A DNA stretch of 64,000 nt, taken from Pseudomonas sp. PDM18. GTDB taxonomy: Bacteria; Pseudomonadota; Gammaproteobacteria; Pseudomonadales; Pseudomonadaceae. How positions within the stretch are numbered: position 1 is the first letter of the stretch; the number at the start of each line of letters is the position of its first letter. The translations under genes and the position numbers were made by a program. Below, in pieces: positions 18,641 to 46,704 of the stretch. The stretch is from positions 62,001 through 126,000 of the forward strand of contig NZ_JACVBX010000014.1 in NCBI RefSeq assembly GCF_014852585.1. Direction: 5' to 3'. Under the pieces are notes generated by a model, which saw nothing but the letters and a program-made list of their open reading frames with translations, was not told the origin of the DNA and searched no databases.

Positions 18641-19792
18641 ATGTTTGATCAGGAAGAGATTTCGCTTTCCCGCCGCACCCTGCTGGCCGGCGCCGTGGTG
18701 CTGGGCGTTACCGGCAGCATGCTCGGCAGCGGCAAGGCCTTGGCTGACGGGGAGGCCGCGCCGAAGAACATGGGTGCGGCCGCGGACCTCTCGAAGCTGG
18801 AGCACGTCCAGATCGAGCTGGTCGCTCCGCCCTTCGTCCATGCCCATGAACAGCGCGCCAAGGGCAAGCCCAAGGTCGTGCAGTTCCGCATGGTGATCGA
18901 GGAGAAGAAGCTGGTCATCGACGACGATGGCACCGAGATCCACGCCATGACCTTCAACGGCTCGGTGCCCGGCCCGATGATGGTGGTACACCAGGACGAC
19001 TACCTGGAGCTCACCCTGGTCAACCCGGCGACCAACACCCTGACCCACAACATCGACTTCCATGCCTCCACCGGCGCCCTGGGCGGCGGCGCGCTGACCC
19101 TCATCCAGCCCGGCGAGGAAGTGAAGCTGCGCTTTCGCGCGACCCGCCCCGGCGTGTTCGTCTACCACTGCGCGCCGGGCGGCGCGATGATCCCCTGGCA
19201 CGTGGTCTCGGGCATGAACGGCGCGATCATGGTGCTGCCGCGCGACGGCCTGAAGGACCGCGAAGGCAAGTCCCTGAAGTACGACAAGGTGGTCTACATC
19301 GGCGAGCAGGACTACTACGTCCCGCGCGACAAGGACGGCAAGTTCAAGCGCTACGGCACGCCGATGGAAAGCTACAACGACATGCAGGAAGTCATGAAGG
19401 GACTGATCCCCAGTCACATCGTGTTCAACGGCAAGGTCGGCGCCCTCACCGGCAAGAACGCGCTCAAGGCCAACGTCGGCGAGACCGTGCTGATCGTCCA
19501 CTCCCAGGCCAACCGCGATACCCGCCCGCACCTCATCGGCGGCCATGGCGACCACGTCTGGGCCACCGGCAAGTTCCACAACCCGCCGGAGGAAGACCTG
19601 GAAACCTGGTTCATCCCAGGCGGCGCGGCCGGCGCTGCGCTGTACACCTTCCTGCAGCCGGGCCTGTACACCTACCTCAACCACAACCTCATCGAGGCTG
19701 TGCTGCTGGGCGCCGCGGCGCACATCCAGGTCGAAGGCCAATGGAACAACGACCTGATGAGCCAGATCCAGCCGCCAACTGCGATCAAGTAA
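18641..19792 (+). CDS. nirK: Copper-containing nitrite reductase
   Basis: A 383-residue periplasmic enzyme reducing nitrite to nitric oxide. A Tat signal is visible ([13 protein letters not shown], Arg11-Arg12). Two cupredoxin domains follow. By comparison with characterised NirK, type 1 copper ligands are His136, Cys177, His187 and Met192, and type 2 ligands are His141, His176 and His348. Catalytic Asp139 and His298 are present, so the enzyme looks intact. GGAGAG lies about 8 bp before the ATG. It stands at the head of the denitrification block, behind a degenerate Dnr box. NirK, not NirS as in P. aeruginosa, is a notable feature of this strain. Confidence 0.97.
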
Positions 19793-19799
19793 GCCCCGA

Positions 19800-19822
19800 G
19801 GCCGGCCCCTCCCGGGCCGGCC
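19800..19822. terminator. GC hairpin between nirK and nirV
   Basis: GGCCGGCCC and GGGCCGGCC arms (9 bp) with a CTCCC loop, followed by only CTTAT. The weak T-run suggests an attenuating or stabilising hairpin that favours nirK over nirV, not a full terminator. Confidence 0.55.
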
Positions 19823-19858
19823 CTTATCCAGTAAACGATATGGGCGACCGGGCCAACC

Positions 19859-20671
19859 ATGCGCAAGACCCTCCTGATCGGCGTCCCCGTCGCACTGCTG
19901 CTGGGCGGGGCCTTCCTCCTGCTACGGCCGCAGTACGCACCGGAGCTCGCGCCGCAAACCGTGCGGCTCGAACCCCGCGACTTCGACTTCCGCCCGGCGG
20001 GCGACTACTGGCTGGAGAAACAGGCAGTGGACGCGCCGTCGCAGCGTGAACACCTCGCCCCGCGCTTTGAAGTCATGAAATTCCAGGTCAGCCAGGGCGA
20101 ATACGCCCGCTGCGTAGCCGAGGGCGATTGCCTGGCACTGGACAACAGCGCTCCCCGCGACGACCTGCCGCTGACCGGTGCCAGCCTGCTGGACGCGCAG
20201 CTCTACGCCGACTGGCTGTCGCGGCGCACCGGCCAGCAGTGGCGGCTGCCCACCGACCGCGAGTGGGCCTTCTTCGCCGGCACGCGCTGGGCCGACGATG
20301 CCCTGCGCATCGAAGACGACGATGGCAGCAACCCCGCCCGGCGCTGGCTGGCGCGCTATCGTCTGGAAGCGGAAACCCGCACCAGCGCCTCGGCGCTGCC
20401 TCAGGCGCGTGGCAACCACGGTCTCAACGAGTACGGCGTGGCTGACCTGGGCGGCAACGTCTGGGAATGGACCCAGAGCTGCCACCAGCGGGTCAACCTC
20501 GACGCCCAGGGCGCCCAGACCCACCGCGCCGAGTACTGCTCGATCCGCATTGCCGAAGGGCGTCACCGCGCGGCGATCAACGATTTCGTCCGCGATGCCC
20601 GCGGCGGCGGCTGCAGCGCCGGCCAGCCACCGGATAACCTCGGCTTCCGCCTGGTCAGAGACATCCCTTGA
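19859..20671 (+). CDS. nirV: NirV-like protein with formylglycine-generating-enzyme fold
   Basis: A 270-residue protein. An N-terminal hydrophobic segment (MRKTLLIGVPVALLLGGAFLL) is a signal anchor or signal peptide. A SUMF1/FGE-sulfatase domain covers the rest: FEVMKFQVSQGEYARCV, WRLPTDREWAFFAG, GVADLGGNVWEWTQSC and the C-terminal RDARGGGCSAGQPPDNLGFR. NirV commonly follows nirK in denitrifiers. Its exact role is unsettled, with copper-site or enzyme maturation proposed. It begins 66 bp after nirK and is likely read through the weak hairpin. Confidence 0.88.
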   Translation: MRKTLLIGVPVALLLGGAFLLLRPQYAPELAPQTVRLEPRDFDFRPAGDYWLEKQAVDAPSQREHLAPRFEVMKFQVSQGEYARCVAEGDCLALDNSAPRDDLPLTGASLLDAQLYADWLSRRTGQQWRLPTDREWAFFAGTRWADDALRIEDDDGSNPARRWLARYRLEAETRTSASALPQARGNHGLNEYGVADLGGNVWEWTQSCHQRVNLDAQGAQTHRAEYCSIRIAEGRHRAAINDFVRDARGGGCSAGQPPDNLGFRLVRDIP

Positions 20672-32399: not shown

Positions 32400-32575
32400 A
32401 GGCGTTTTTCTTGTAGGTGTCAGGCCTAGGCGTCGGCGGAGCATACCCGAGGAGGTAGCCCCGCCCAAGCAGGATGATGGCAATTGGCTGCGTACCCGCC
32501 CAACTTTCGTCGGGAAGACGCCGGACGGCAGGCGGGTTTGCCGGGGAAAACCGCCCGTCGGTAGAATGCCGCCCC

Positions 32576-34756
32576 ATGAACGATGACATCTCCTACCTGC
32601 TCAACTCCCTCAATGACCCGCAGCGCCAGGCCGTGGCCGCGCCGCTGGGGCGCCAGCGCGTGCTCGCTGGCGCCGGGTCCGGCAAGACCCGCGTGCTGGT
32701 GCACCGTATCGCCTGGCTGATCCAGGTCGAGAACGCCTCGCCGCACAGCATCCTGGCCGTGACCTTCACCAACAAGGCCGCCGCCGAGATGCGCGCGCGG
32801 ATCGAGCAGCTGCTGGGGATCAACCCGGCCGGCATGTGGGTCGGCACCTTCCACGGCCTGGCGCACCGCCTGCTGCGCGCGCACTGGCAGGAAGCCGGAT
32901 TGCCGGAGAACTTCCAGATTCTCGACAGCGACGACCAGCTGCGCCTGGTCAAGCGCGTGGTGCGCGAACTGGGCCTCGACGAGCAGCGCTGGCCCCCGCG
33001 GCAGGCGCAGTGGTTCATCAACGGCCAGAAGGACGAGGGCAACCGCCCGCAGAACATCCAGGCCGGCGGCGACCTGTACCTGGCGACCATGGTCAGCGTC
33101 TACCAGGCCTACGAAGAGGCCTGCGCCCGCGCCGGTGTCGTCGACTTCGCCGAGCTGCTGCTGCGCTCGCTGGACCTCTGGCGCGACCGTCCGAGCCTGC
33201 TGGAGCACTACCAGCGGCGCTTCCGCCACATCCTGGTGGACGAGTTCCAGGACACCAACGCCGTCCAGTACGCCTGGCTGCGCTTCCTCGGCAAGGGCGG
33301 CGAGAGCCTGATGGTGGTAGGCGACGACGACCAGTCGATCTACGGCTGGCGCGGCGCGAAGATCGAGAACATCCAGCAGTTCGGCGATGACTTCGCCGGC
33401 ACCGAGGACATCCGTCTGGAGCAGAACTACCGCTCCACCGGCACCATCCTCAAGGCTGCCAACGCGCTGATCGCCAACAACAGCGGGCGCCTGGGCAAGG
33501 AACTGTGGACCGACGGCGTCGACGGCGACCCGATCACCCTGTACTCGGGCTTCAACGAGCACGACGAGGCGCGCTACATCGTCGAGACCATCGAGGACGC
33601 CCTGCGCAAGGACGGCCTCAAGCGCAGCGACATCGCCATTCTCTACCGCTCCAACGCCCAGTCCCGCGTGCTCGAAGAGGCGCTGCTGCGCGAGAAGATT
33701 CCCTACCGCATCTACGGCGGCCAGCGCTTCTTCGAGCGTGCCGAGATCAAGAACGCCCTGGCCTACCTGCGCCTGATCCGCCTGCGCGACGACGACGCCG
33801 CGCTGGAGCGGGTGATCAACGTGCCGCCGCGCGGCATCGGCGAGAAGACCGTCGAGGCGATCCGCAACGCCGCACGCCACAACGGCACCTCGATGTGGCG
33901 CGCGATCAACGACGTGATCGCCGCCAAGGCCGTGGCCGGCCGCGCCGCCAGTGCGCTCAATGTGTTCCTGGAAACCGTCGACCTGTTGGCGGTGAAGGTC
34001 GAGGGCCTGCCGCTGCACCAGATGACCCAGATCGTCATCGAGCAGTCCGGCCTGATCACCTACCACAAGGAAGAGAAGGGCGAGAAAGGCCAGGCCCGGG
34101 TAGAAAACCTGGAAGAACTGGTCAGCGCCGCCCGCGCCTTCGAAACCCCGGACGACGAGGACACTCCGCCGCTGGTGGCCTTCCTCGACCACACCGCGCT
34201 GGAGTCCGGCGACACCCAGGCCGATGCCTTCGAGGACAGCGTGCAGCTGATGACGCTGCACAGCGCCAAGGGCCTGGAATTCCCGCTGGTGTTCCTCGCC
34301 GGCGTGGAAGAAGGCCTGTTCCCGCACAAGATGAGCCTGGAGGAGCCCGGCCGCCTGGAAGAAGAACGCCGCCTGGCCTACGTAGGCATCACCCGCGCCA
34401 TGCACCGTCTGGTCATGACCTACGCGGAAACTCGCCGCCTGTACGGCAGCGAGACCTACAACAAGGTCTCGCGCTTCGTCCGCGAAATCCCGCCGAGCCT
34501 GATCCAGGAAGTGCGACTGTCCAACTCGGTGAGCCGTCCGCTGTCGGGCAACCAGCGCAGCGGCAACCTGTTCAGCGGCGCCAGCGTACCGGACACCCCG
34601 TTCAGCCTCGGCCAGTCCGTGCGCCACCCGCTGTTCGGCGACGGCGTGATCCTCAACTTCGAAGGCTCCGGCGCCCAGGCACGGGTGCAGGTGAACTTCG
34701 ACAGCGAGGGCAGCAAGTGGCTGATGATGGGGTATGCGAAGCTGGAGGCGATCTGA
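32576..34756 (+). CDS. uvrD: DNA helicase II
   Basis: A 726-residue superfamily 1A helicase acting in nucleotide excision and mismatch repair. Motifs in order: Walker A LAGAGSGKTRV (about 30-40), LAVTFTNKAAAEMR, Walker B HILVDEFQDTN, motif III VVGDDDQSIYGWRGA, motif IV LEQNYRST, then LMTLHSAKGLEFPLVFLAGV and YVGITRAM. A C-terminal Tudor-like tail (PLFGDGVILNFEGSGAQARV) is the UvrD/PcrA RNA-polymerase-binding region. The start at 32576 gives MNDDISYLLNSLN. It is a core gene marking the boundary of the glycan island. Confidence 0.97.
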   Translation: MNDDISYLLNSLNDPQRQAVAAPLGRQRVLAGAGSGKTRVLVHRIAWLIQVENASPHSILAVTFTNKAAAEMRARIEQLLGINPAGMWVGTFHGLAHRLLRAHWQEAGLPENFQILDSDDQLRLVKRVVRELGLDEQRWPPRQAQWFINGQKDEGNRPQNIQAGGDLYLATMVSVYQAYEEACARAGVVDFAELLLRSLDLWRDRPSLLEHYQRRFRHILVDEFQDTNAVQYAWLRFLGKGGESLMVVGDDDQSIYGWRGAKIENIQQFGDDFAGTEDIRLEQNYRSTGTILKAANALIANNSGRLGKELWTDGVDGDPITLYSGFNEHDEARYIVETIEDALRKDGLKRSDIAILYRSNAQSRVLEEALLREKIPYRIYGGQRFFERAEIKNALAYLRLIRLRDDDAALERVINVPPRGIGEKTVEAIRNAARHNGTSMWRAINDVIAAKAVAGRAASALNVFLETVDLLAVKVEGLPLHQMTQIVIEQSGLITYHKEEKGEKGQARVENLEELVSAARAFETPDDEDTPPLVAFLDHTALESGDTQADAFEDSVQLMTLHSAKGLEFPLVFLAGVEEGLFPHKMSLEEPGRLEEERRLAYVGITRAMHRLVMTYAETRRLYGSETYNKVSRFVREIPPSLIQEVRLSNSVSRPLSGNQRSGNLFSGASVPDTPFSLGQSVRHPLFGDGVILNFEGSGAQARVQVNFDSEGSKWLMMGYAKLEAI

Positions 34757-34892: not shown

Positions 34893-36785
34893 TCACCGTC
34901 CCGGGCAGATGGCCTGGTCCATGTCGCCAAGGGCGTAGCCATCCTGTTGCGGCATGAGGAACTTGCCGACCAGCAACGGCCGGCCGATCCTTCCGGCATA
35001 GCGATCCATCCCGGAGCTCGATGCACCGACGTAGGTCGGCTGCGTCATCGCTTCGACCGTTGCCACGCGCGGCATGGGCTGGTCGGCGGTCAAAGCCGTC
35101 TTGCCGTTGACGTAGATCACCAGCTTGCCTTCCTCCTTGCCCGGGAAGGGGAAAGTCGAGACCGGCTTGATGTTGAAAGTGGTCACTACGGCGTTACAAC
35201 CTTCCCGCCAGTTCACCGGGCTACCCTCGAAGCGGCTGCCGCCGTGAGTCACCACCAGACGGCCCCGCTCCAGGACGAGGCTCCAGAGGCCAGGCTGTTC
35301 CACAAGTACCTGGCGCCCCATGCCGACACTGCGGATAGCTCCCAGACCGAGGCTATAGCCGCCGAACACGGGCGAACGCTGATAGTCCCGTCCGCTCAGA
35401 TAAGCCGGTGCCGCGCCTTCGGCAGGGTGCCACTCTAGGGGAACCGGGCGCGCGTGGCGCTCCCAACGGCGGATCAGATCGGAGGCCTCTTCCTTGCTGA
35501 AGGGCTTCAGCGTCGACAGGACGGTCTTCGCACCATCCACAGGGCCGGAAACCGAACGGCTCTCCAACTGCGAGAACAGGTTGCGATAGAACAGCCCTCG
35601 CCCCGGAATATGCCCGCCGTAAGTCATGCCCCATCTCATCACATCTGCCGCCCAGTACAGCTCGTCGACCTCGGGCAAGGGCGCGCCGGATTCAAGCTGC
35701 GGGGAAAGGTCGCGCCCGCTCAGTCCCGCAGGCGCCTTGCCGCCGACCATTCCGATCAGCGTCGGATAAAGATCGGTGATCCGCGAAATGCCGATCACGT
35801 CCCGGTCATTGGTGTGCCCCGGCCAGATCATCATCAGCGGAGCCCGCACGCCGCCCTCGAAATAAGTGGCCTTGGTGCCGGTCAGCGGATAATTACTGTC
35901 GCGCGCAATGTTCGGACTGCCGTTATCGCTGGTAAACACGATCAGGGTGTTGTCCAACTGTCCGCTGGCCTTGAGCGCGTCGAGCAATCGGGCAACGTTA
36001 TGGTCGAGTTGCTTGAGTACAGCGAGGTAGCGCCCCGCCTCGGTATCGGGAAACTGCTGGCGATAGGTTTGCGAAGGCTCGAAAGGATGGTGGGGCGATA
36101 GCAGCCAGAGATTGATGAACCAGGGCTTGCCCGCTACCTGCCCCTGGTCGATCAGCGAGATGGCCTGGTCGGTCAGCAGGTCGTCAAGGTGCCCCTTGTA
36201 CTGGATCGGCGGGCCGTCGTCGCGCTCCAGCCACGGATCATTGAAGGTGGGCTTGCGCCGGATCAGTTGCCCCTGAGCATCCGGGCCCTGCAGAACGAAA
36301 TGGTTGAGCATGCCGAACCAGTCATCGAAACCCTGGTGGTTCGGACGAATCTGCAGATACTCCAGCCCTTCTCCGACATGCCACTTGCCAAGATGGTGAG
36401 TGCTGTAACCCAGCGCACGCAGTGACTTGGGGAGGGTTTCCAGATCGGGTGAAAGCCCCAGGCCATCGGGCTCGAAGCCGATCCCAACCGGGTCCCGGCC
36501 GGTCATCAGCGCGGCGCGGCTGACCGAGCAGGTGCTATCGGTATAGTGCTGCCGGAAACGCAGCGACTGGCGGCTGAGCTGGTCCAGAGTAGGCGTCGGT
36601 GCCTGACCGTCTCCCCAGGAGGCGATGTCGTTGTTACCCAGGTCGTCGGCGAGGATGAAGAGAATATTGGGTTTCTCGGCTTGATCCTGAGCATTGCTCA
36701 CGGGGACCATGGCAAGCAGAATCAGCCAGGCAATGACAAGTCGGGTCGTGAGCGCAGACGCCGCTCGCGTGGAAAAGAACAACAT
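34893..36785 (-). CDS. Secreted sulfatase with atypical active-site motif
   Basis: A 630-residue alkaline-phosphatase-superfamily sulfatase. A signal peptide (LVIAWLILLAMVPVSNAQ) leads to metal-binding ILFILADDLG (Asp47, Asp48). The active-site box is CSVSRAALMTGRDP (Cys86, Arg90); it keeps Cys and Arg, but the usual Pro or Ala of CxPxR/CxAxR is Val88. GKWHVGE (134-140), LSPHHPFEP and FTSDNGSPN complete the site. The C-terminal third looks like a concanavalin-like sugar-binding domain. It should remove sulfate from a glycan or aryl ester in the periplasm or outside. It sits at the edge of a cluster with a sulfotransferase. Confidence 0.88.
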   Translation of the reverse strand: MLFFSTRAASALTTRLVIAWLILLAMVPVSNAQDQAEKPNILFILADDLGNNDIASWGDGQAPTPTLDQLSRQSLRFRQHYTDSTCSVSRAALMTGRDPVGIGFEPDGLGLSPDLETLPKSLRALGYSTHHLGKWHVGEGLEYLQIRPNHQGFDDWFGMLNHFVLQGPDAQGQLIRRKPTFNDPWLERDDGPPIQYKGHLDDLLTDQAISLIDQGQVAGKPWFINLWLLSPHHPFEPSQTYRQQFPDTEAGRYLAVLKQLDHNVARLLDALKASGQLDNTLIVFTSDNGSPNIARDSNYPLTGTKATYFEGGVRAPLMMIWPGHTNDRDVIGISRITDLYPTLIGMVGGKAPAGLSGRDLSPQLESGAPLPEVDELYWAADVMRWGMTYGGHIPGRGLFYRNLFSQLESRSVSGPVDGAKTVLSTLKPFSKEEASDLIRRWERHARPVPLEWHPAEGAAPAYLSGRDYQRSPVFGGYSLGLGAIRSVGMGRQVLVEQPGLWSLVLERGRLVVTHGGSRFEGSPVNWREGCNAVVTTFNIKPVSTFPFPGKEEGKLVIYVNGKTALTADQPMPRVATVEAMTQPTYVGASSSGMDRYAGRIGRPLLVGKFLMPQQDGYALGDMDQAICPGR

Positions 36786-36803
36786 TCAGTGAATCCCCGA
36801 AAA

Positions 36804-37595
36804 ATGCTTAAGAATCTTTTCGCGCCAAAGAGCAACGGCAATATCAGCGCCCCATCCCATGGACTGCTGCTGGATTATCGCGCGCTGATGGCCGGGGTTG
36901 CCGACCAGGCACCGCACTATGCGGGCAATGCCCCCTTCCCGCATATCGTCATCGACAACTTTCTCCCGCCCGCCACCTTCTCCAGGCTGCTCGAAGAGTA
37001 CCCGCACGACCAGGCCGATCCGCTGTGGAACAATGCGACCCACACCGACAAGGCCAGCGGCGAGTACGTGCAGAAGGACAAGCGCAATATCCGCGATCCC
37101 CTGCGCATGCCGCCGACCTATCGTCAGCTGTTCTGGGAGCTCAACTCCCACGGTTTCCTCGACTACTTGTCGCAGCTCAGTGGCATCGCCAACCTGATCC
37201 CTGACCCGAACCTGCGTGGTGCCGGGATTCACCAGATCGCCCGCGGCGGATTCCTCAAGGTGCACACCGACTTCGCCACTCACCGGGATTTCGGCCTGGA
37301 CCGCCGACTGAACGTGCTGATCTACCTGAACGAAGAGTGGCCCGACAGCTATGGCGGCCACCTCGAGCTCTGGGACACGGAGATGGCCGGCCCCCCTCGG
37401 CGTGTGCTGCCGATCGCCAACCGCTGTGTGGTATTCAGCACGACCGCCAGCTCGTTCCATGGGCACCCACATCCCCTCACCTGCCCGGAGGACGTCTATC
37501 GCCGCTCCCTGGCACTGTACTACTACACCAACGGCCGCCCCGAAGGCGAAGCTCAACCCGGCTTCGCCACCCACTGGCGTGATGTTCCCGCCTGA
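36804..37595 (+). CDS. 2OG-Fe(II) oxygenase
   Basis: A 263-residue cytoplasmic protein with the prolyl-4-hydroxylase-like double-stranded beta helix. Iron ligands are visible as His154 and Asp156 (LKVHTDFATH) and a distal His219 (SSFHGHPHPL). An arginine at about 233-234 is expected to bind 2-oxoglutarate. FPHIVIDNFLPPATFSRLLE is typical of the family's N-terminus. It probably hydroxylates a sugar, lipid or protein linked to the glycan. The ATG at 36804 is assumed; GTG at 36789 is also possible, and neither has a strong ribosome binding site. It is divergent from the sulfatase with under 20 bp between starts. Confidence 0.82.
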   Translation: MLKNLFAPKSNGNISAPSHGLLLDYRALMAGVADQAPHYAGNAPFPHIVIDNFLPPATFSRLLEEYPHDQADPLWNNATHTDKASGEYVQKDKRNIRDPLRMPPTYRQLFWELNSHGFLDYLSQLSGIANLIPDPNLRGAGIHQIARGGFLKVHTDFATHRDFGLDRRLNVLIYLNEEWPDSYGGHLELWDTEMAGPPRRVLPIANRCVVFSTTASSFHGHPHPLTCPEDVYRRSLALYYYTNGRPEGEAQPGFATHWRDVPA

Positions 37596-37601
37596 CTGCA
37601 A

Positions 37602-38759
37602 TCAGGCGTCAGCGGCACGACGCGCCCAGGGGGCGCGTCCAGAATAGGTCGCCAGGTGCGACTTCAGACGCAGGAAGGGCATCTCTACCAGTCGATAGCT
37701 CAGCCATGCCAGGGCCCAGGACAACACCAGGCTCAAGGCAATGCGCATCAGGTAGACGTCGGCATTCGCGTCCAGCGTCAAGCCGGTAGCTTTCAATGGA
37801 TACAGGCAATAGAACTGCACCGGCACATGGATCAGGTAGAGCGAGTAGGAAATCCGTCCAAAATGATCGGCCAGCGGATTGACCAGCATCGCCTTGATCC
37901 GCCAGCTCAGCGCCAGCAACCCGAGCATCACGCCGCCCCAGAGCAACGACTCGATGTTGTGGTACATCGGCAAGGCTTGCAGGGCATTGCGCTCTCCGCT
38001 CAGGGAAAACCACAACCACAGGCGCACCAGCCCCAGCAGGCAGGCCGTCAGCAGGCCGAAGGCCACGAAGGAGCGACGGCTCAACCAGGCGTATCCCGCG
38101 CTCAGGCTGAATCCGGCACAGAGCGCTCCCACCAGGAAAGCACCCGCGCGACCGAACAAGGAGTTCTCCCAGGGATTGGTCGGCGACAGCCAGCCCGGCG
38201 AATGGAACAGGTAGACGTGGGCCGCGGCCCAGGCCAGCAGCGCGCCTCCCACCAGCCAGCGCCCGGCGCGAAAGCGCACTAACCACATGACCCAGGGCAG
38301 CAACAGGTAAAACTGGATCTCGGTACACAGCGACCACCAGGGCACGCTGAAGGGGAAGGCCTGGAAACCTATCGGGATGAACAGCAGAGCCTTGAGCGCG
38401 ACCACCTTCTGCGTCATGAACCAGGCCAGCAGCACTGCCGCGTAATAAAGCGGCACGATGCGGAAGAAACGTGCCGAGTAGAAGCGCCGGATGCTCACCT
38501 GCTGTCCGTTTCGCAACCCCTGCAGAAACGGCCGCGCCAACAGGAACCCGCTGAGCACGAAGAACAGGGTGACGCCGGTATTTCCGCCCCCCAGCAGGGT
38601 AACCCAGGCAGGGTTGTCCGGGCGCCCTGCCAGGCCGAGGACTCCAAAGTAGTGGAAGCCCACCACCAGGAGAATCGCCCAGCCCCGCAGCGACTCCAGC
38701 TCTGGCAGGTAGCTGCCCGGCTGGCGCAGGCCGGCAGGAGAGTCGGAGCGCTCGCTCAT
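37602..38759 (-). CDS. Membrane acyltransferase (family 3) A
   Basis: A 385-residue protein with about ten membrane helices. The acyltransferase-3 signature is present: LESLRGWAILLVVGFHYFGV with the catalytic-type His, GNTGVTLFFVLSGFLLARPF, RFYSARFFRIVPLYYAAVLL and GRISYSLYLIHVPVQF. Such proteins O-acetylate surface sugars or lipopolysaccharide. It lies 3 bp after the methyltransferase gene in a same-strand run of six. Confidence 0.92.
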   Translation of the reverse strand: MSERSDSPAGLRQPGSYLPELESLRGWAILLVVGFHYFGVLGLAGRPDNPAWVTLLGGGNTGVTLFFVLSGFLLARPFLQGLRNGQQVSIRRFYSARFFRIVPLYYAAVLLAWFMTQKVVALKALLFIPIGFQAFPFSVPWWSLCTEIQFYLLLPWVMWLVRFRAGRWLVGGALLAWAAAHVYLFHSPGWLSPTNPWENSLFGRAGAFLVGALCAGFSLSAGYAWLSRRSFVAFGLLTACLLGLVRLWLWFSLSGERNALQALPMYHNIESLLWGGVMLGLLALSWRIKAMLVNPLADHFGRISYSLYLIHVPVQFYCLYPLKATGLTLDANADVYLMRIALSLVLSWALAWLSYRLVEMPFLRLKSHLATYSGRAPWARRAADA

Positions 38760-38762
38760 GCC

Positions 38763-39518
38763 TCAGTTCGCCGGCTGCTGCTGGCCCTGGGTGAGGCGCT
38801 TGAGTTTGCGGGTGTTCTCCAGATGCTTGCTGGCATGCACGTAGAAAGCACGCAAACCGGCCCCCTCATCGGCCTTGGCGTCCTTGAACAGAAGCTTGAT
38901 CAGCGAGTGGTCATTGCTGCGATCGCCGCCGGGCTTGCGCAGCACGCCCAGGCCGAAGCCGTGGTTGAAGGTGAAGGTCTCGTGCTGGTCGCGGGTCTCG
39001 TCCCAGAACTTCCAGGCGCCGAAGTCCTGTACGCGGGCCATGACATCGTGGAACAGGATGATGCCGCCCGGTTTCACCTTGGGATACCAGTTGGCGAAGT
39101 CGGCGCTGACCGCCTCGTAGGTGTGGAAACCATCGATGTGCAGCAACTCGATGGTGTCGTCGTCGAAGTGCTTGAGGGCATCCTCGAAGAACATCCGCAT
39201 CAGGTAGGAGAAGCCGTGGTAGTTCTGGCGGTTATGGTTGTTCACCGCATTGAATACCGATTCGTCGTACTTGTCGGTGTGGGCATCGCCCTCGAAGGTG
39301 TCGACGGCGTAGCAGACGCCATCGATCTCGTTCTCCTTCATGGCCTGGCAGAAGGTGAAGTAGGACAGGCCCTTGTGCGTGCCCAGTTCCACCAGCAGCC
39401 TGGGTCGCAGCGCAGCCACTATGTCGTAGCCGAACGGCAGGTGGTCAATCCAAGTGCTGAAGACCATGTGCAGCGGCTCGAAGTGGCGCACCGATGGCGG
39501 CATATAAACAGAAGTCAT
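38763..39518 (-). CDS. Class I SAM-dependent methyltransferase
   Basis: A 251-residue Methyltransf_24-like enzyme. Motif I is LLVELGTHKGLSYFTFCQAM, followed by AVDTFEGDAHTDKYDE. LLHIDGFHTYEAVSADFANW with KPGGIILFHDV carries the Asp/His residues of metal-dependent O-methyltransferases. It is likely to methylate a sugar hydroxyl. Its ATG overlaps the stop of the next acyltransferase gene by 4 bp, showing translational coupling. Confidence 0.85.
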   Translation of the reverse strand: MTSVYMPPSVRHFEPLHMVFSTWIDHLPFGYDIVAALRPRLLVELGTHKGLSYFTFCQAMKENEIDGVCYAVDTFEGDAHTDKYDESVFNAVNNHNRQNYHGFSYLMRMFFEDALKHFDDDTIELLHIDGFHTYEAVSADFANWYPKVKPGGIILFHDVMARVQDFGAWKFWDETRDQHETFTFNHGFGLGVLRKPGGDRSNDHSLIKLLFKDAKADEGAGLRAFYVHASKHLENTRKLKRLTQGQQQPAN

Positions 39519-40600
39519 ACCGGCAAAGCCTCCGAATATTTAGTTTTAGAAGAGTACCGATTCTTCAGTGAGAGGACTGGTTTTTCGATCAGGCAGTAAC
39601 TCAGGTGGGCCAGCGCAAGCGCCAGCGCCAGGCCCAGAAGCAGCCTTGGCCAGACCGGTGCGCCGGCAGCATTGCCATATGACAGGCAAGCCACCAGCAC
39701 CGGCTGGTGAATCAGGTAGAGCGAATAGGAAATCCGCCCGAGATAGCGCAATGGTCGGCCGGGCAGACCACCGCCAAGGCCTGGCGTCGATAGCATCACC
39801 CAGGCTACGGCGCCCCAGAGCAGGCTTTCCGGAAGCACGATCCAAGGCTGCCGCCAGGAGAACTCGACGACACCGTGCTCTACGGTGATCTGCAGGAAGA
39901 TGGCCAGCACAACGACAAGCAGGAGCAACACACTTGCTCCTGAAGCGGTACTCAGCGTTGGCAGTCGTTGTTTGGTCAGTAGCCAGCCGATTCCCATGCC
40001 CAGCAGGAACACCGGCAGCTTCCCTGCCAGGGACAGGGCCCAGTAGATGTTGCCCAGCAGTCCGAAGGAAACCCAGCGCAAGGTGACAGCAATGAACAGC
40101 GCGAGCCAGATCAGCAGTGCGCCCGCGGCCAGCCGGCGATCAAATCCTAGTACCAGAAAGAACAGCGGCAGGAACAGGTAGAACTGGACCTCCGTGGCGA
40201 GGCTCCACCAGACATTGCTGAATACGCCAACGTCATAGCCCCAGGCGAGGAACACCATCGCAGCGGGCAGCTGCTCGTAACGCCCGGTGACCAGCACGGC
40301 CACCAGCACCGCCAGATAATACGGCGGAAGAATCCTCAGGGCCCGCTGCAAGGCGTAACGCTTCAGGTCCATTGTCCGGCGTTCGCTTAACGCCAGGAAA
40401 AAAGGGCGCGACACCAGAATTCCGCTGAGCAGGAAGAACAGGCTGACACCACTGTTCCCTGCATAGACGTAGGCCAGCCAGTAGCTGCCACCGGCAGGCG
40501 GGACGAAACCAAAGGCTGCGGTCACCCCGTGGTAGAGCACCACAAGCAGTATGGCGACACCGCGCAGGTCGTCGAGCACCGCAATCCTTGCGTCGGCCAT
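39515..40600 (-). CDS. Membrane acyltransferase (family 3) B
   Basis: A 361-residue paralogue of acyltransferase A, with about ten membrane helices. Signature segments are LDDLRGVAILLVVLYHGVTA, GNSGVSLFFLLSGILVSRPF, YALQRALRILPPYYLAVLVA and GRISYSLYLIHQPVLVA. Two family-3 enzymes in one cluster suggest acylation at two positions or with two acyl groups. Its base composition looks a little less GC-rich than the housekeeping genes around it. Confidence 0.92.
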   Translation of the reverse strand: MADARIAVLDDLRGVAILLVVLYHGVTAAFGFVPPAGGSYWLAYVYAGNSGVSLFFLLSGILVSRPFFLALSERRTMDLKRYALQRALRILPPYYLAVLVAVLVTGRYEQLPAAMVFLAWGYDVGVFSNVWWSLATEVQFYLFLPLFFLVLGFDRRLAAGALLIWLALFIAVTLRWVSFGLLGNIYWALSLAGKLPVFLLGMGIGWLLTKQRLPTLSTASGASVLLLLVVVLAIFLQITVEHGVVEFSWRQPWIVLPESLLWGAVAWVMLSTPGLGGGLPGRPLRYLGRISYSLYLIHQPVLVACLSYGNAAGAPVWPRLLLGLALALALAHLSYCLIEKPVLSLKNRYSSKTKYSEALPV

Positions 40601-40605
40601 GACAG

Positions 40606-41601
40606 TCAGCGCCTGGCCTCGGCGCTCTTCTGCAGATCATCCTGGAAGGGATGCTCACCGCGCGCCGCAAAGCGTCCGAATCGATCCTGCGCCCGCTCCG
40701 CCGAGCGTTGCAGATAGCGCTGTGCCGGCGCCTTCACCTTGCCCAGCAGAATCGGCTCGACCGTCGGCGAGCGGAAGGGCTCACCGAGCAGCTCGCACAG
40801 CTGCTCCTTCTGCAACTCCAGAATCCTATCGCGCCCGGTCACCTCCGACGTGGTCACGCCACCGTGCAACTGATGGAACGAGCCCTCACCCGCCAGCATG
40901 AACAGCTGGGTTCGCGGATGCACGGCCAGAGCGCGATAGATGAACAGATTGAGGGCCCCTCCACCGGGCATGTCGAAGCGTTCGTCTGCATTGCCGACTT
41001 CGGCCAGCCTCTGGGCGGAAACGAACAGGCAATTACACTCCATGAATGGCTGGAAGAATCCGTTGGGATTCGCGCCACTCCAGCAGGAAATCTCGAACAG
41101 CCGATAACCCTGGTTGCGCCAGTCGATCTTCTCCAGCAGCGCCCGCTCGGCATCCTCGCTGTAACCACGGCTGAGATGGAACTGCTGCTCATCCTCGCCA
41201 AGGTGGTAGCCCGGCACTACGACCAAGGCATCCTCATTCATGCGCAGGGCCATCAATGCATAGTGGAGCACTCCGGGAGTCACCATCCGCGCGCCGTCGA
41301 TCATCAGGCCGATGAAACTTCCCCGCGCCTGCGCAATACCGAAATTGATCGAGGGTGCCGGCGATACGCCCTGTTCATCGCGCAGGTAGTAGCGGAAGTT
41401 GCCGGGCAGGCGCGCGATGGCCTCGGCATCCATGTTCCGCTGTGAGCGGTTCTCCACCAGAATCACTTCGTAGTCGTCGGAATCGACGCCCTGCTGGTAG
41501 TCCGGTGCCAGGCTGAGCAAGGTATTGAACGCCTGGCGCGGCATGTCGTAGGCGATGACGATGATCGACAGCAGCGGACGCCGCTCATGTAACAGGCTCA
41601 T
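40606..41601 (-). CDS. GT2-like glycosyltransferase A
   Basis: A 331-residue GT-A-fold protein. It begins PLLSIIVIAYDMPRQAFNTL, the usual family 2 start, then has YEVILVENRSQ. The position where a DxD is expected reads LMIDGARM. The C-terminal half carries EGSFHQLHGGVTTSEV and VEPILLG, both shared with the neighbour. The acceptor and donor sugars cannot be predicted. Its 5' end overlaps the GT2 B stop by 4 bp. Confidence 0.82.
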   Translation of the reverse strand: MSLLHERRPLLSIIVIAYDMPRQAFNTLLSLAPDYQQGVDSDDYEVILVENRSQRNMDAEAIARLPGNFRYYLRDEQGVSPAPSINFGIAQARGSFIGLMIDGARMVTPGVLHYALMALRMNEDALVVVPGYHLGEDEQQFHLSRGYSEDAERALLEKIDWRNQGYRLFEISCWSGANPNGFFQPFMECNCLFVSAQRLAEVGNADERFDMPGGGALNLFIYRALAVHPRTQLFMLAGEGSFHQLHGGVTTSEVTGRDRILELQKEQLCELLGEPFRSPTVEPILLGKVKAPAQRYLQRSAERAQDRFGRFAARGEHPFQDDLQKSAEARR

Positions 41602-42521
41602 ACCGCCTGTACCCGGCTCAGCGAATGGTTGAGGAAGCGGAAGATGTGCGGGTGTGCCGAGCCCAGCAGGATCGGCTGCACGCTAGGCGGATTGCGGTTC
41701 TCGCCGCGGATCTGCTTGTCCTGCTCGTCAAGCAGCTTGTAGACGCGCTCGCGCTCCTCGCGCAGCGTGCCGGTGGTCACTCCGCCATGGAACTGGTGGA
41801 ACGAGCCCTCGCTGTAGAGCAGGTAGAACGGCGTATTCGGGTATTCCAGCAGACGCTTGTAGAGGTCCAGGTTGGCATTGCCGCCGCCGAAGTCGTTGTA
41901 GCGCGGATTCACCCCGCCCAGCGCCTTCCATTTGCGCATCGACATGCCGATGAAGTTGCTTTCGTAGTTGGCCTGGAAGAAGCCGCCCTGGCACGAGCCA
42001 CTGAGCACTGCGATGTCGAAGAGGCGGTAACCGTTGCTGGGCCACTCGATGCTCTGCAGCAGCACCTGTTCGGCATCTTCGTTGTAGCCCTCGTTCACCG
42101 CGACCTGCTGAAGTTTGTGGCCGATGTGGTAGCCAGGCACGGAGACCGCCGCCTCCGCATCGAGACGGAAAGCGTCCAAGGCATGACGCAGCACACCGGG
42201 CGAGAGCATGCGCGCGCCGTCGATCATGATCGCGACGTGACTGCCGCGGGCCTGAGCCGCGCCGAAGTTGATCGCGTGCACCGGCGTACGCTCGGTTTCG
42301 TTGCGATGGAAATAGCGCACGTTGCCTGCGTGCCGGGTGGCACGCTCGCGCCCCAGCAGCCGGTCGGAATGGTTCTCGACGACTATGACTTCATAGTCAC
42401 GCTCGTTCACACCATGCTGGTAGGCAGGGCTGAGCGACTGCAGCGTCTTCTCGGCCTGATCTGGCATCTTGTAGACAATGACCACGACGCTCAGACGCGG
42501 CGCGCGACGAAAGATGGGCAT
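41598..42521 (-). CDS. GT2-like glycosyltransferase B
   Basis: A 307-residue paralogue of GT2 A. Shared pieces are RLSVVVIVYKMPDQAEKTLQ, YEVIVVENHS, INFGAAQARGSHVAIMIDGA, EGSFHQFHGGVTTG and VQPILLG. As in A the metal-site word is IDGAR instead of DxD. Tandem duplication followed by divergence is the simple explanation. It may add a different residue of the same repeat or cap. Confidence 0.82.
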   Translation of the reverse strand: MPIFRRAPRLSVVVIVYKMPDQAEKTLQSLSPAYQHGVNERDYEVIVVENHSDRLLGRERATRHAGNVRYFHRNETERTPVHAINFGAAQARGSHVAIMIDGARMLSPGVLRHALDAFRLDAEAAVSVPGYHIGHKLQQVAVNEGYNEDAEQVLLQSIEWPSNGYRLFDIAVLSGSCQGGFFQANYESNFIGMSMRKWKALGGVNPRYNDFGGGNANLDLYKRLLEYPNTPFYLLYSEGSFHQFHGGVTTGTLREERERVYKLLDEQDKQIRGENRNPPSVQPILLGSAHPHIFRFLNHSLSRVQAV

Positions 42522-42536
42522 GACACAACCCCCGGA

Positions 42537-43274
42537 TCAGTGAGCGATGGCTTTGAGAGCCCGGTACATGGCATCCAGCTCGGGCGCGAGTGCCTCGTCG
42601 CCGTGCCGATGATGTTTGAGTTCGGAACTGAAGAAGCGCTCCGTGGCTGGCGGCTGCAGGCCAAAGCCACGCAGCACCTCGTCCAGCTGACGGTGCAGGC
42701 TTTCCTCGTCCTGGTCGAAGCACAGCACCGGGAATTTCACCCGTGCGTGCAGTTCGAGCAGACGGGCGTTGTAGGCCTTCCACAGGCCCAGGGCCTGTTC
42801 ACGCGGCATGCCGCCACGGGCCTGGAGGGAGTCGGCGACCGCCGAAGGGTGGCGGAAGATGCCGACAAAACGCAGCTGCGGGATGAGCTCCAGCCAGCCT
42901 TCGACGGCCAGGAGTGCGCGCGGGTCCTTGAACCCCCAGCGTTTCACACCGTCATAACCGTCGATCAGCTCGCGGGCAGCGACGTATTCGGCCTCGGTCC
43001 AGATCGGCGCCACGCTGGGCGGATTGTCCCAGGCATGGCCACGGGCGGCGAGCAACGCATCGTGGAACGCGACAATATCGCCGTTCTCGCGGTTGCCCTT
43101 CAGATTGTGGGGATTCCAGGTGCTGTGCTTGCCCAGCTCCAGGCCGGACTCCTGCAGGGAGCCAGTGAGGAAGCTGGTGCCGCTGCGGTGCATGCCAACC
43201 ACCATCAGCACTAGGTCTTCAGCGGGCTGGGGAGCTTTGCGGGAGGAACCGAACAAGACATCAAATAGGCGCAT
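42537..43274 (-). CDS. PAPS-dependent sulfotransferase family protein
   Basis: A 245-residue protein. The 5'-phosphosulfate-binding loop is MVVGMHRSGTSFLTGSL (about residues 24-40). The 3'-phosphate-binding segment is FVGIFRHPSAVADSLQARGG. WGFKDPRALL resembles the substrate-side helix. Such enzymes move sulfate from PAPS to sugars or other hydroxyls. It is the first gene of the minus-strand run and faces the exporter genes across a 122-bp gap. Sulfated glycans are rarely reported in Pseudomonas. Confidence 0.87.
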   Translation of the reverse strand: MRLFDVLFGSSRKAPQPAEDLVLMVVGMHRSGTSFLTGSLQESGLELGKHSTWNPHNLKGNRENGDIVAFHDALLAARGHAWDNPPSVAPIWTEAEYVAARELIDGYDGVKRWGFKDPRALLAVEGWLELIPQLRFVGIFRHPSAVADSLQARGGMPREQALGLWKAYNARLLELHARVKFPVLCFDQDEESLHRQLDEVLRGFGLQPPATERFFSSELKHHRHGDEALAPELDAMYRALKAIAH

Positions 43275-43396
43275 ACCAGCTCTTTTTTCTTATGTTTGGG
43301 CGATGATCCGCACAGATTGCGCCGCAATCGGCACGCAGGCTTGCTGCGACGCATTGTGTTTAAATACCCCACCCTTTTCAATCCAACAAGAAAGAC
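43275..43396. promoter_or_regulatory. Divergent promoter region of the glycan island
   Basis: This 122-bp gap between the sulfotransferase and the exporter permease is relatively AT-rich (TTTTTTCTTATG, TGTTTAAATACC). It must hold both promoters. No operator palindrome is evident. Confidence 0.5.
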
Positions 43397-44152
43397 ATGA
43401 AGCACAGGGACATCATTCTATTCGGCGTCTACAGCGACCTGCGCACCGAAGTGGCGCGGCGTTTCCTCGGATTCCTCTGGTGGATCCTCGAGCCCGTGAT
43501 GTACATGGGCGCCTTCTACATTGTCTTCGGCCTGGCCCTGGGCCACAGCCGTCCCGGCTATGTCCCGCTGCTGCTCAGCGGCATGGTCGCCTGGAAATGG
43601 TTCGATGGCTCGGTGCGCCAGGCCAGCAACGCCATCCAGGCGAACGCCGGCCTGATCCAGCAGATCCACGTGCCCAAATACGTGTTCGCGCTGATCCCGG
43701 TGCTGAGCAACACGTTCAAGTTTCTGATCATCCTCACCCTGCTGATCCTCTCGCTGCTGCTCGCCGGCTACCGCCCATCGGTGGAGTGGCTGGCTCTGCC
43801 GGTGCTGATCCTCAACCAGCTGCTGTTCATCATAGGCTTCGGCTTCCTGCTCGCCTCGGTATTGCCCTTCGTGCCGGACCTGCGCCAGGTGGTGGACAAC
43901 TTCCTGATGCTGATGATGTTCATGTCCGGGGTGTTCTTCAGCATCCACGAGATCCCCGCCTCCATGGCACCACTGCTGAATCTCAATCCGATGACGGTGA
44001 TGATCACCGCCTTCCGCGACGTGCTGCTGCACAACCAGTGGCCGACCTGGGGCGAACAACTCTACGTGCTGTCGGTCGCTGTCCCGTTCCTGTCCTTGGC
44101 GCTGTGGGTCCTGCACCGCAACGAGCGCAAGTACCCCAAGCTTCTGTTCTGA
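43397..44152 (+). CDS. wzm: ABC-2 type polysaccharide exporter, permease (Wzm-like)
   Basis: A 251-residue inner-membrane protein with six predicted helices. It begins with the short cytoplasmic segment typical of Wzm/KpsM (DLRTEVARRFLGFLWWILEP). MVAWKWFDGSVRQASNAIQANAGLIQQIHVPKYVF is the conserved loop of the family, read in pieces. It pairs with the ATPase 8 bp downstream. It exports a completed lipid-linked polysaccharide across the inner membrane. Confidence 0.92.
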   Translation: MKHRDIILFGVYSDLRTEVARRFLGFLWWILEPVMYMGAFYIVFGLALGHSRPGYVPLLLSGMVAWKWFDGSVRQASNAIQANAGLIQQIHVPKYVFALIPVLSNTFKFLIILTLLILSLLLAGYRPSVEWLALPVLILNQLLFIIGFGFLLASVLPFVPDLRQVVDNFLMLMMFMSGVFFSIHEIPASMAPLLNLNPMTVMITAFRDVLLHNQWPTWGEQLYVLSVAVPFLSLALWVLHRNERKYPKLLF

Positions 44153-44160
44153 GGTGATGC

Positions 44161-44931
44161 ATGTCCGGTGACCTGATTCTCCAGGCCGAGCACGTCGGCC
44201 TGTCCTACCGGCAGCGGGTCGGGATGCTGCGCTACGAATCGTTCTGGGCCCTGCAGGACGTCAGTTTCGAACTCTACGAAGGCGAAACCCTCGGGGTGAT
44301 CGGCAACAATGGTGCGGGCAAGAGCACGCTGCTGCGCATGATCGCCGGCATAGTCGAACCCGACCGCGGCACCCTGCAGCGCAGCAAACCTCTCAATGCC
44401 AGCCTGCTGGCGCTGAACGTCGGCTTCAAGCCCGAGCTGTCCGGGCGCGACAACGTGGTCATCAGCGGCCTGCTGCTGGGCATGAAGCTCGCCGACATCC
44501 GCCGGCAGATGGATGACATCCGTGAATTCAGCGACCTGGGTGACTTCTTCGAACGGCCGGTGGGCACCTACTCGACGGGAATGCGCGCCCGCCTGGGCTT
44601 CGCCGTGGCGATCCACGCCAACCCGGATATCCTGCTGATCGACGAGGTGCTTGGTGTTGGCGACCAGGCCTTCCGCGAGAAATCCCACGCAGCCATGAAG
44701 ACCAAGATCAAGGAAGGCAAGACCGTGATTCTGGTTTCGCACAGCATGGAGGCAATCAAGGAGCTCTGCCACCGGGCACTCTGGATCGAACGGGGACGGT
44801 CGGTACTCTGCGGCGAGGCTAGTGAAGTCGTGGGCCAATACCATGAGGCCGTCCGGATTGCGGTTCGCGACATGCAGAAGCTTGAACGCGAGCAGTCAGC
44901 CAAAAAGCAGGATCTCGAGCCCGTCCAATGA
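44161..44931 (+). CDS. wzt: ABC polysaccharide exporter, ATPase (short Wzt-like)
   Basis: A 256-residue ATPase. Walker A is GVIGNNGAGKST (K54); the signature YSTGMRARLGFAVAI is the variant of LSGGQ usual in polysaccharide exporters; Walker B is ILLIDEVLGVGD. The protein ends soon after the nucleotide-binding domain, so it lacks the C-terminal carbohydrate-binding domain of long Wzt proteins that recognise a chain cap. The export would then be uncoupled from a terminal modification or use another mechanism. Confidence 0.92.
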   Translation: MSGDLILQAEHVGLSYRQRVGMLRYESFWALQDVSFELYEGETLGVIGNNGAGKSTLLRMIAGIVEPDRGTLQRSKPLNASLLALNVGFKPELSGRDNVVISGLLLGMKLADIRRQMDDIREFSDLGDFFERPVGTYSTGMRARLGFAVAIHANPDILLIDEVLGVGDQAFREKSHAAMKTKIKEGKTVILVSHSMEAIKELCHRALWIERGRSVLCGEASEVVGQYHEAVRIAVRDMQKLEREQSAKKQDLEPVQ

Positions 44932-44943
44932 AAGCCGGCGGGC

Positions 44944-46704
44944 TCAGTGATGCCCGCCGCCGCTCTGCTCGAAGGTCTCGATCAGCGCCACCTGCATCCG
45001 CGAATGCACGCGGATGAACCAGCGCCAGAACACCGCGATCACCAAGGCGGCGATCAGCGCCACCACCACCAGCAGTTCGCCCGGCGGCAGGATGCTCGAA
45101 CTGAGCGCCGCCAGCAGCAGCATCATGCCGCCCAGCGACAGCAGCGGGATCAGCTCGGAAATCACCCGGCGTACGCGGGCCGTATGGCGCCCGGCGCTCT
45201 CCGCCTTCACGCCCATCTCCGCCAGCAGCATCGCCAGCGCCTTGAGCTTGCGGTAGGCGGCGATCAGGAACGGCAGTGACAGCAGCAACGCGGCGCCCCA
45301 GATCAGCGCCTTGTGCAGCGCCTCGTGCTCGACGAACTGCGCCAGCCACTGCGACAGGCGGTCGGCGAAGAACGCCAGGCCGAAGAAGATCGCGATCACC
45401 AGCGTCAGGTTGACCCCGACCTGCAGCAGGATGCGCCGGATCATCCCGGCAAGTATCGCCTTGTCGCCGCGCGGCTTGATACTGCGCAGCCATTCGCCGT
45501 ACAGGCTGAACACCCGCACCATGGGCGATGGCAGGCTGCGGCCCAGGTACAGCGCCAGCGGGTCGGCCGAACGGATCAGGTAGGGCGTCAGCAGTGTGGT
45601 GATAGCCGACACGCCGACCACCACCGGATAAAGGAAGTCGCTGGTCACGCCCAGGCTCATGCCCAGCGCGGCGATGATGAAGGAGAACTCGCCGATCTGC
45701 GAAAGGCCCATGCCGACGCGCATCGAGGTGCGCCCGTCGTTGCCGGCGATGAATGCGCCAGCACCGCAGGACACCAGCTTGCCGGCGACCACCACCAGGG
45801 TGATTACCAGGATCGGCGCGGCGTAGTCCACCAGCACCTTGGGATCGATGGTCAGGCCGATGGCGACGAAGAAGATCGCGCTGAACATGTCACGCACCGG
45901 CTCCATCAGGCGTTCGATCTGGATCAGCTGGCGCGACTCGGCCATGATCGCGCCGATCAGGAAGGCGCCCAGGATCATGCTGTATTCGAGCTTCACCACC
46001 AGCAGGCAGAAGCCGAAGCACAGGCCCAGCACCGTCACCAGCAGCATCTCGTTGCTTTCGAATTTCGCCACGTAGGCCAGCAGGCGCGGCACCAGCAGGA
46101 TGCCGACGACCAGCGCGACGACCATGAACAGGCTGAGCTTGCCGACCGTGGAGAACACCTGGTCGGCCTCCACCGTGCCGCTCACGGCGATGCCGGAGAA
46201 CAGGGCGATGATGCCGATGCCGAGGATGTCCTCGATGATCAGCACGCCGAAAATCAACTGGGCGAAACGTTCGTTCTTCATCTTCAGGTCGCCCAGGACC
46301 TTGATGATGATGGTGGTCGAGGACATCGCCAGGATCGCGCCGAGGAACAGCGAATCCATGGTGCTCCAGTCGAACAGGCGGCCGATCTCGAAGCCGGCCC
46401 AGATCATCAGGGTGATTTCCAGGAACGCGGCGATGAACGCCGTGGCGCCGACCTGGAACAGCTTGCGCAGGGAAAACTCCAGCCCCAGGCAGAACATCAG
46501 GAAGATCACCCCCAGCTCGGCGAGGGTCTTGATCGTTTCCTCGTCGTGCACCAGGGCGAACGGCGGGGTGTGCGGACCGATGATCACCCCGGCGATGATG
46601 TAGCCCAGCACCACCGGCTGCTTGAAGCGGTGGCAGAGGATGGTGACGAAACCGGCGATCAGCATGATCACCGCGAGGTCCTGGATGAAGTCGATGGCAT
46701 GCAT
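44944..46704 (-). CDS. CPA2-family cation/proton antiporter
   Basis: A 586-residue membrane protein with 12 or more helices in the Kef/GerN-type antiporter domain (residues 1-400). Signature stretches are VVLGYIIAGVIIGPHTPPF, LGVIFLMFCLGLEFSLRKLF, IFGVLIIEDILGIGIIALF with its acidic pair, and LSQIGEFSFIIAALGMSLGV. The C-terminal 180 residues hold further helices but no TrkA-N domain, unlike the second antiporter at 55154. It likely exchanges Na+ or K+ for H+. Confidence 0.9.
   Translation of the reverse strand: MHAIDFIQDLAVIMLIAGFVTILCHRFKQPVVLGYIIAGVIIGPHTPPFALVHDEETIKTLAELGVIFLMFCLGLEFSLRKLFQVGATAFIAAFLEITLMIWAGFEIGRLFDWSTMDSLFLGAILAMSSTTIIIKVLGDLKMKNERFAQLIFGVLIIEDILGIGIIALFSGIAVSGTVEADQVFSTVGKLSLFMVVALVVGILLVPRLLAYVAKFESNEMLLVTVLGLCFGFCLLVVKLEYSMILGAFLIGAIMAESRQLIQIERLMEPVRDMFSAIFFVAIGLTIDPKVLVDYAAPILVITLVVVAGKLVSCGAGAFIAGNDGRTSMRVGMGLSQIGEFSFIIAALGMSLGVTSDFLYPVVVGVSAITTLLTPYLIRSADPLALYLGRSLPSPMVRVFSLYGEWLRSIKPRGDKAILAGMIRRILLQVGVNLTLVIAIFFGLAFFADRLSQWLAQFVEHEALHKALIWGAALLLSLPFLIAAYRKLKALAMLLAEMGVKAESAGRHTARVRRVISELIPLLSLGGMMLLLAALSSSILPPGELLVVVALIAALVIAVFWRWFIRVHSRMQVALIETFEQSGGGHH

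Follow-up and report, generated by a model that had tools for sequence, protein, structure and literature searches.

Sulfated surface polysaccharides are known mainly from marine bacteria and rhizobia, and surface charge or decoration of this kind usually bears on phage attachment and adhesion. In Pseudomonas aeruginosa, the common polysaccharide antigen is reportedly encoded by an ATP-binding cassette (ABC)-exported polysaccharide locus near uvrD, which is said to contain GT4-type enzymes and genes for GDP-D-rhamnose. The ten-gene block described here occupies positions 34893-44931 of a 64,000-nucleotide stretch of Pseudomonas sp. PDM18 (contig NZ_JACVBX010000014.1), henceforth referred to as the window, and is flanked by uvrD (32474-34756) and a Na+/H+ exchanger gene (44944-46704). 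Unlike the P. aeruginosa locus, it contains GT-A enzymes and neither GT4-type nor GDP-D-rhamnose genes. With a probability of roughly 60%, the block supplies the decoration and export functions for a sulfated surface polysaccharide, probably containing rhamnose and resembling an O-antigen or capsule, whose synthesis would be divided between two loci (the two-locus pathway). If this is true, a pseudomonad group makes such a polysaccharide via two unlinked gene blocks that are inherited together, and a single surface structure would link two loci under joint selection.

Sulfated, ABC-exported loci that combine a sulfotransferase (ST) with genes for 3'-phosphoadenosine 5'-phosphosulfate (PAPS) have been published for Vibrio sp. 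KMM 8419 and Cobetia marina KMM 1449 (PMC11641403, PMC11766843), and the claim of a "new" system, made in a preliminary description of the block, was therefore too strong. These capsule loci have in common with the two loci considered here, taken together, an ST, PAPS genes, dTDP-rhamnose genes, an ABC exporter and glycosyltransferases (GTs). The Vibrio paper regards PAPS and ST genes together as a hallmark of sulfated polysaccharide loci and describes an O-acyl group on rhamnose; the word sulfatase is absent from its main text (PMC11641403). The exporters differ, being of the kps type in the Vibrio and Cobetia loci, with kpsSC in Cobetia, and of the Wzm/Wzt type here. Two unlinked loci, a sulfatase-fold gene, a 2-oxoglutarate (2OG) oxygenase and a pairing of ST and GT genes further set the present system apart. 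The wbsalmo locus of Aeromonas salmonicida (PMC4483657) likewise features ABC-2 export, an ST-domain open reading frame (ORF) after wzt, and rml genes. Its Wzt, however, is 438 residues long and its wzm and wzt lie apart, whereas the Wzt of the window has 256 residues, is devoid of a Wzt_C domain and is encoded beside wzm in a block without a backbone GT set. Among open-licence papers, none was found describing either the block or the large protein of the second locus (see below) in Pseudomonas.

Conservation and insertion site of the block

Seven genes of the block run leftward in the order ST, GT2, GT1, an acyltransferase (AT2), a methyltransferase (MT), a second acyltransferase (AT1) and a sulfatase-fold protein (SulfA); the genes for the 2OG oxygenase, Wzm and Wzt run rightward. 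All ten proteins gave Pfam matches above the curated cut-offs, which bears out the gene content reported in the preliminary description. Conservation was assessed in a genus sample of 25 species, one genome each, and in a family sample of 398 Pseudomonadaceae genomes. Close ST relatives (65–100% identical, own genome included) were detected by protein search in 9 of the 25 species, all of them relatives of Pseudomonas citronellolis and P. pseudonitroreducens, and the block adjoins uvrD in each of the nine. In the family sample, a GT2 relative was present in 16 genomes, 15 of which carry the block. Six of these 15 full loci belong to two other genera, whose members include P. ullengensis, P. 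guryensis, P. subflava and Pseudomonas sp. PIC25, and lie in stretches that include neither uvrD nor the exchanger gene.

Failure of the genes to stay together in other genomes had been named beforehand as a ground for abandoning the proposal; they were found as a unit in 15 loci that span three genera and at least two kinds of site, with a few gaps. A separate AT2 is absent from three loci (L028-L030), MT is absent from the P. citronellolis locus (L035), and L034 lacks the exchanger gene while retaining the next flanking gene, which encodes a Tim44-domain protein. Among 14 of the 16 cluster-free genomes of the genus sample, the site was empty in 12, with uvrD and the exchanger gene 75–386 bp apart; other genes lie between the two in G018, and uvrD was not found in the fetched stretch of G012. 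The two genomes left out of this check were G002 (contig edge) and G011 (no exchanger match at the threshold). The G+C content of the block is 0.621 as against 0.664 in the remainder of the window, which fits acquisition from elsewhere. Its retention across three genera, its clean absence from relatives and its lower G+C content establish that the gene set is more than a chance neighbourhood. The P. citronellolis version additionally contains two inserted proteins of ~540 residues (L035:5770-9127), one of which was scanned and has no Pfam match.

The second locus and its association with the block

The block was described earlier as devoid of sugar-nucleotide synthesis and of an initiating transferase, and family scans agree: no match to either kind of family was obtained with the block proteins (E 0.001; 0.01 for the 2OG protein). 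A candidate for the missing backbone functions is located on another contig of the same genome (C64), where the gene order is rmlB, rmlD, rmlA, rmlC-like, a gene for a ~1320-residue protein, an adenosine 5'-phosphosulfate (APS) kinase gene and dctB/dctD-like genes (rml and dct names assigned by eye). The large protein, henceforth referred to as ST/RgpF/HAD, matches the RgpF and HAD families above their cut-offs and also has a Sulfotransfer_3 part, just short of the threshold (24.9 bits, cut-off 27), that resembles the ST of the window (31%, 6e-18).

Joint presence of the two loci was observed across the 25 species. The full-length ST/RgpF/HAD protein occurs in 8 of 9 cluster genomes and in 0 of 16 cluster-free genomes (Fisher 8.3e-6). 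Similarly, the APS kinase gene cysC adjoins dctB in 9 of 9 cluster genomes compared to 1 of 16 others (Fisher 4.9e-6). The presence of cysC as such was rejected as a cluster marker, as an APS kinase match was obtained in all 25 genomes; in 23 of them a copy of at least 53% identity is present besides copies of 43–46% located in ~640-residue frames. Only the position of cysC next to dctB tracks the cluster, with G002 as the exception. Seven of the 16 cluster-free genomes have rmlC no more than 1.5 kb before dctB, one of them with an rmlD-like match in between. G004 carries an APS kinase copy after dctD.

Inheritance by clade was considered and rejected as the sole reason for joint presence. On a 22-genome tree, 7 changes were counted for the cluster and 7 for the large protein, against an average of 7.2 for shuffled cluster labels, so that clade inheritance alone does not explain the co-occurrence; the tree was built from the two genes on either side of the insertion, and these may recombine with it.

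The strongest evidence that both loci serve one product is the order of genes in relatives. In gamma proteobacterium HdN1, the gene directly after wzt encodes a 1315-residue protein with the same domain composition (39% identity over 96%). In all six loci of the two other genera, wzt is followed by a gene related to the ST part of the large protein and, further on, by a 52–59% relative of the GT314 gene of C64; an APS kinase gene (cysC) is present in two. The C64 locus is linked to the block on the strength of this gene order and of the co-occurrence in the genus. The suggestion that the backbone is made elsewhere gains support from the same observations, with the ST/RgpF/HAD gene as the candidate.

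Candidates for two of the supporting functions that were put forward as checks in the preliminary description occur in the genome. APS kinase matches are located beside the ST/RgpF/HAD gene on C64 and in a 637-residue frame on C33, with none inside the block; an APS kinase and an ST share one locus in L086, L087 (same genome as L133), L134 and L151. Two proteins match the initiating-transferase family PF00953, namely a 341-residue protein on C11 and an MraY-like protein on C33 lying, by eye, between mur-like genes.

Proposed pathway and the separate-glycan alternative

The pathway proposed here starts from the observed gene families, conservation, joint presence and gene order; the acceptor, the order of transfer, the sulfate position, the role of the sulfatase-fold protein and the attachment to lipid A or another anchor are what we infer. 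The chain would be started on undecaprenyl phosphate by the PF00953 transferase of the genome. The backbone would then be built by the RgpF part of the ~1320-residue protein and the neighbouring GTs of the rml-dctBD locus, and the ST-like part of the large protein may add one sulfate. PAPS would be supplied by the neighbouring APS kinase, whose family assignment is clear and whose activity is presumed. GT1 and GT2 would add further residues, and because the ST and GT genes are paired, ST is proposed to sulfate the residue added by its partner GT. At the level of protein family, MT would methylate, the acyltransferases acylate and the 2OG oxygenase hydroxylate the chain, followed by export through Wzm/Wzt. 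Judging from known Wzt types, export by a Wzt without a Wzt_C domain would not be gated by recognition of a capped end. In the weakest step of the scheme, exported SulfA, if matured, could strip some of the sulfate outside the cytoplasm.

Several observations weigh against this pathway. The ST-like part of the large protein stays below the Pfam cut-off (24.9 and 24.2 compared to 27), and APS-kinase genes unfused to CysN are common in the genus. P. citronellolis (G001) carries the cluster without the full-length large protein; a 421-residue ST-like protein is encoded directly after its wzt. Since the 25 genomes in which the link to the large protein was first noticed also served to test it, the association is not independent. 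Other points favour a rival reading in which the block makes and exports a separate short glycan or glycolipid independently of C64, with GT1 and GT2 extending a lipid or lipid-linked acceptor and ST sulfating it. C64 encodes its own Wzm/Wzt, with a Wzt_C domain, so that the genome has a second exporter in addition to that of the window; a pair of the C64 type was not seen in seven other stretches (L211-L217). In the family sample, the large protein was matched at 1e-60 in 15 of 398 genomes, and four of these (G076, G264, G319 and G392) have no GT2 match; in G392 the relative spans residues 247-1318 (43%), and the other three match only a part. L139 contains ST-GT2-GT1-MT-2OG without close wzm/wzt relatives, and several Halieaceae contain the ST-GT pair alone between unrelated genes. 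Against a separate glycan stand the joint presence of the block and the ST/RgpF/HAD gene in the genus and the way the genes are arranged in HdN1 and in the six loci from the other two genera, and this explanation is considered improbable, at perhaps a third of the weight given to the two-locus pathway.

Enzymes of the block, the sulfatase-fold protein and related loci

Within the two-locus pathway, sulfation is assigned to ST (42537-43274, minus strand), which matches PF13469 (Sulfotransfer_3) at 1.3e-6 with 29.3 bits, just above the cut-off of 27. The motif GMHRSGTS (residues 27-34), R141 and S149 are invariant in 29 of 29 aligned sequences; we take the first to be the 5'-phosphosulfate loop and the latter two the R...S motif that binds the 3'-phosphate. 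An AlphaFold2 model of ST had a predicted local distance difference test score (pLDDT) of 86.5. Foldseek matches to it were weak (7.8e-5 and above), with sulfotransferase 3rnl best, TPST2 and Stf0 also on top, and P-loop kinases close behind; a profile search of the PDB returned a single match (E 0.076). By fold and PAPS-binding motifs, ST is a predicted PAPS-dependent sulfotransferase.

The partner enzyme GT2 (41598-42521, minus strand; PF00535, Glycos_transf_2) is a GT of the GT-A type in which DGA (101-103) and FHQxHxG (241-247) are invariant across a 37-sequence alignment. Its AlphaFold2 model (pLDDT 92) is of the GT-A fold, with chondroitin polymerase as the nearest Foldseek match (1.7e-12). 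GT1 (40606-41601, minus strand; PF10111 and PF00535) is a GT-A enzyme of the same family, 47% identical to GT2. Named genomes were scanned with patterns drawn from GT2 only, and the pairing with ST is therefore not forced by the query. The scan yielded 52 loci, including HdN1, a Rhodobiaceae metagenome-assembled genome (MAG), Halieaceae, deltaproteobacterial MAGs, a SAR324 MAG and a Chloroflexi MAG. Re-searching recovered no GT match in L181, and counts were made over the other 51, 42 of which are outside records named Pseudomonas; these counts are lower bounds, since contig ends cut many loci. In 32 of 51 loci (23 of 42 non-Pseudomonas), the gene immediately 5' of a GT of the GT1/GT2 family, on the same strand, encodes an ST. 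A SulfA relative is present in 20 (11 non-Pseudomonas) and a Wzm/Wzt relative at 36% identity or more in 15 (6 non-Pseudomonas). Owing to its recurrence in the 23 non-Pseudomonas loci, ST with its adjoining GT looks like an old module and, if the two-locus pathway is right, would serve as a marker for sulfated glycans in other phyla. A broader proposal, which we hold only tentatively and consider less likely than the pathway itself, is that this old, transferable sulfated-sugar module, spread over Gammaproteobacteria and alphaproteobacterial, deltaproteobacterial and Chloroflexi MAGs, was in Pseudomonas built into an exported, decorated glycan that is gained and lost together with its second locus, as a two-locus serotype switch with sulfatase trimming.

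The remaining tailoring enzymes are two membrane acyltransferase-3 proteins, AT1 (37602-38759; PF01757, Acyl_transf_3, 2.7e-27) and AT2 (39515-40600; PF01757, 1.1e-31), and the S-adenosylmethionine-dependent MT (38763-39518; PF13578, Methyltransf_24, 2.5e-26), all on the minus strand. MT is fused to GT1 in the three loci that have no separate AT2, the combined frame being about 607 residues long (L028:9996-11819, with counterparts in L029 and L030); the fusion connects the methyltransferase with the GT step. The 263-residue 2OG-Fe(II) oxygenase (36804-37595, plus strand; PF13640, 2OG-FeII_Oxy_3, 2.9e-17) is flanked by minus-strand genes, and its relatives retain the HxD and distal His motifs. 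An overlapping minus-strand ORF of 271 residues (36786-37601), lying opposite the oxygenase gene and without a family match, was rejected as a gene.

The ABC-2 permease and ATPase of a Wzm/Wzt pathway are both present, the Wzm-type permease at 43397-44152 (PF01061, ABC2_membrane, 3.2e-10) and the Wzt-type ATPase, with Walker A and signature motifs, at 44161-44931 (PF00005, ABC_tran, 4.1e-24), both on the plus strand. KpsM and galactan-permease models match Wzm, and teichoic-acid and galactan export ATPase models match Wzt, in each case below the cut-offs of the models. The Pfam scan found no Wzt_C domain (PF14524) in Wzt and no KpsC or KpsS among the proteins of the block, the genome at large not having been searched for the latter two. 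The predicted families thus support surface-glycan decoration and ABC export, as the preliminary description proposed.

SulfA (34893-36785, minus strand; 630 residues; PF00884, 4.1e-50) has an N-terminus that resembles a signal peptide by eye. A LamG domain suspected by eye in its C-terminal part was rejected, as Pfam returned chance-level matches only. Its catalytic Cys is kept in 34 of 34 aligned rows, some of which represent repeat genomes. Maturation of formylglycine (S1) sulfatases uses the motif C-x-[P/A]-x-R. The SulfA motif departs from it as CSVSR in the window, in all nine loci of the genus and in L089, and is CSPSR or CSASR in the other 5 of the 15 full loci. The sole match in the genome to the formylglycine-generating enzyme (FGE) family, the anaerobic maturase not having been searched for, is located in the window at 19859-20671 beside a multicopper oxidase, and is probably NirV. 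Given this motif and a sole FGE-family gene that is NirV-like, reversible or editing sulfation is not supported as originally stated; sulfatase activity of SulfA, and thus editing, is a candidate role only. SulfA could instead be a passenger that scavenges sulfate or acts on foreign sulfated glycans, for which the non-standard motif in the genus and its best solved relatives by sequence, carrageenan sulfatases, would speak. Set against this, each of the 15 full loci includes a SulfA relative, one of them cut by the edge of the stretch, and no glycoside hydrolase family was matched among the block proteins, which leaves the passenger explanation quite unlikely. The oxidase beside the FGE-family gene is NirK-like, the pair spanning 18641-20671.

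Least likely of all is a role in glycosylating and sulfating a protein, for instance flagellin. In G371, the sixteenth genome of the family sample with a GT2 relative, that relative (37%) lies beside a Methyltransf_24 protein in a region that appears flagellar by eye (L092:9467-11106), possibly for flagellin glycosylation there. Against such a role, all 15 full loci retain wzm/wzt, and the flanking ORFs scanned included no flagellar structural gene.

Two further ST-like genes were observed in the genome of strain PDM18. On contig C6 (L053:9659-13541), another Wzm/Wzt-like pair is directly followed by a 566-residue Sulfotransfer_3 protein, with mannose/fucose-type nucleotide-sugar genes upstream by eye, and the genome may thus carry more than one sulfated glycan. 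On contig C7 (L054:9990-11555), a 521-residue ORF with a Sulfotransfer_1 match is located between genes that are, by eye, mnmE- and mnmG-like.

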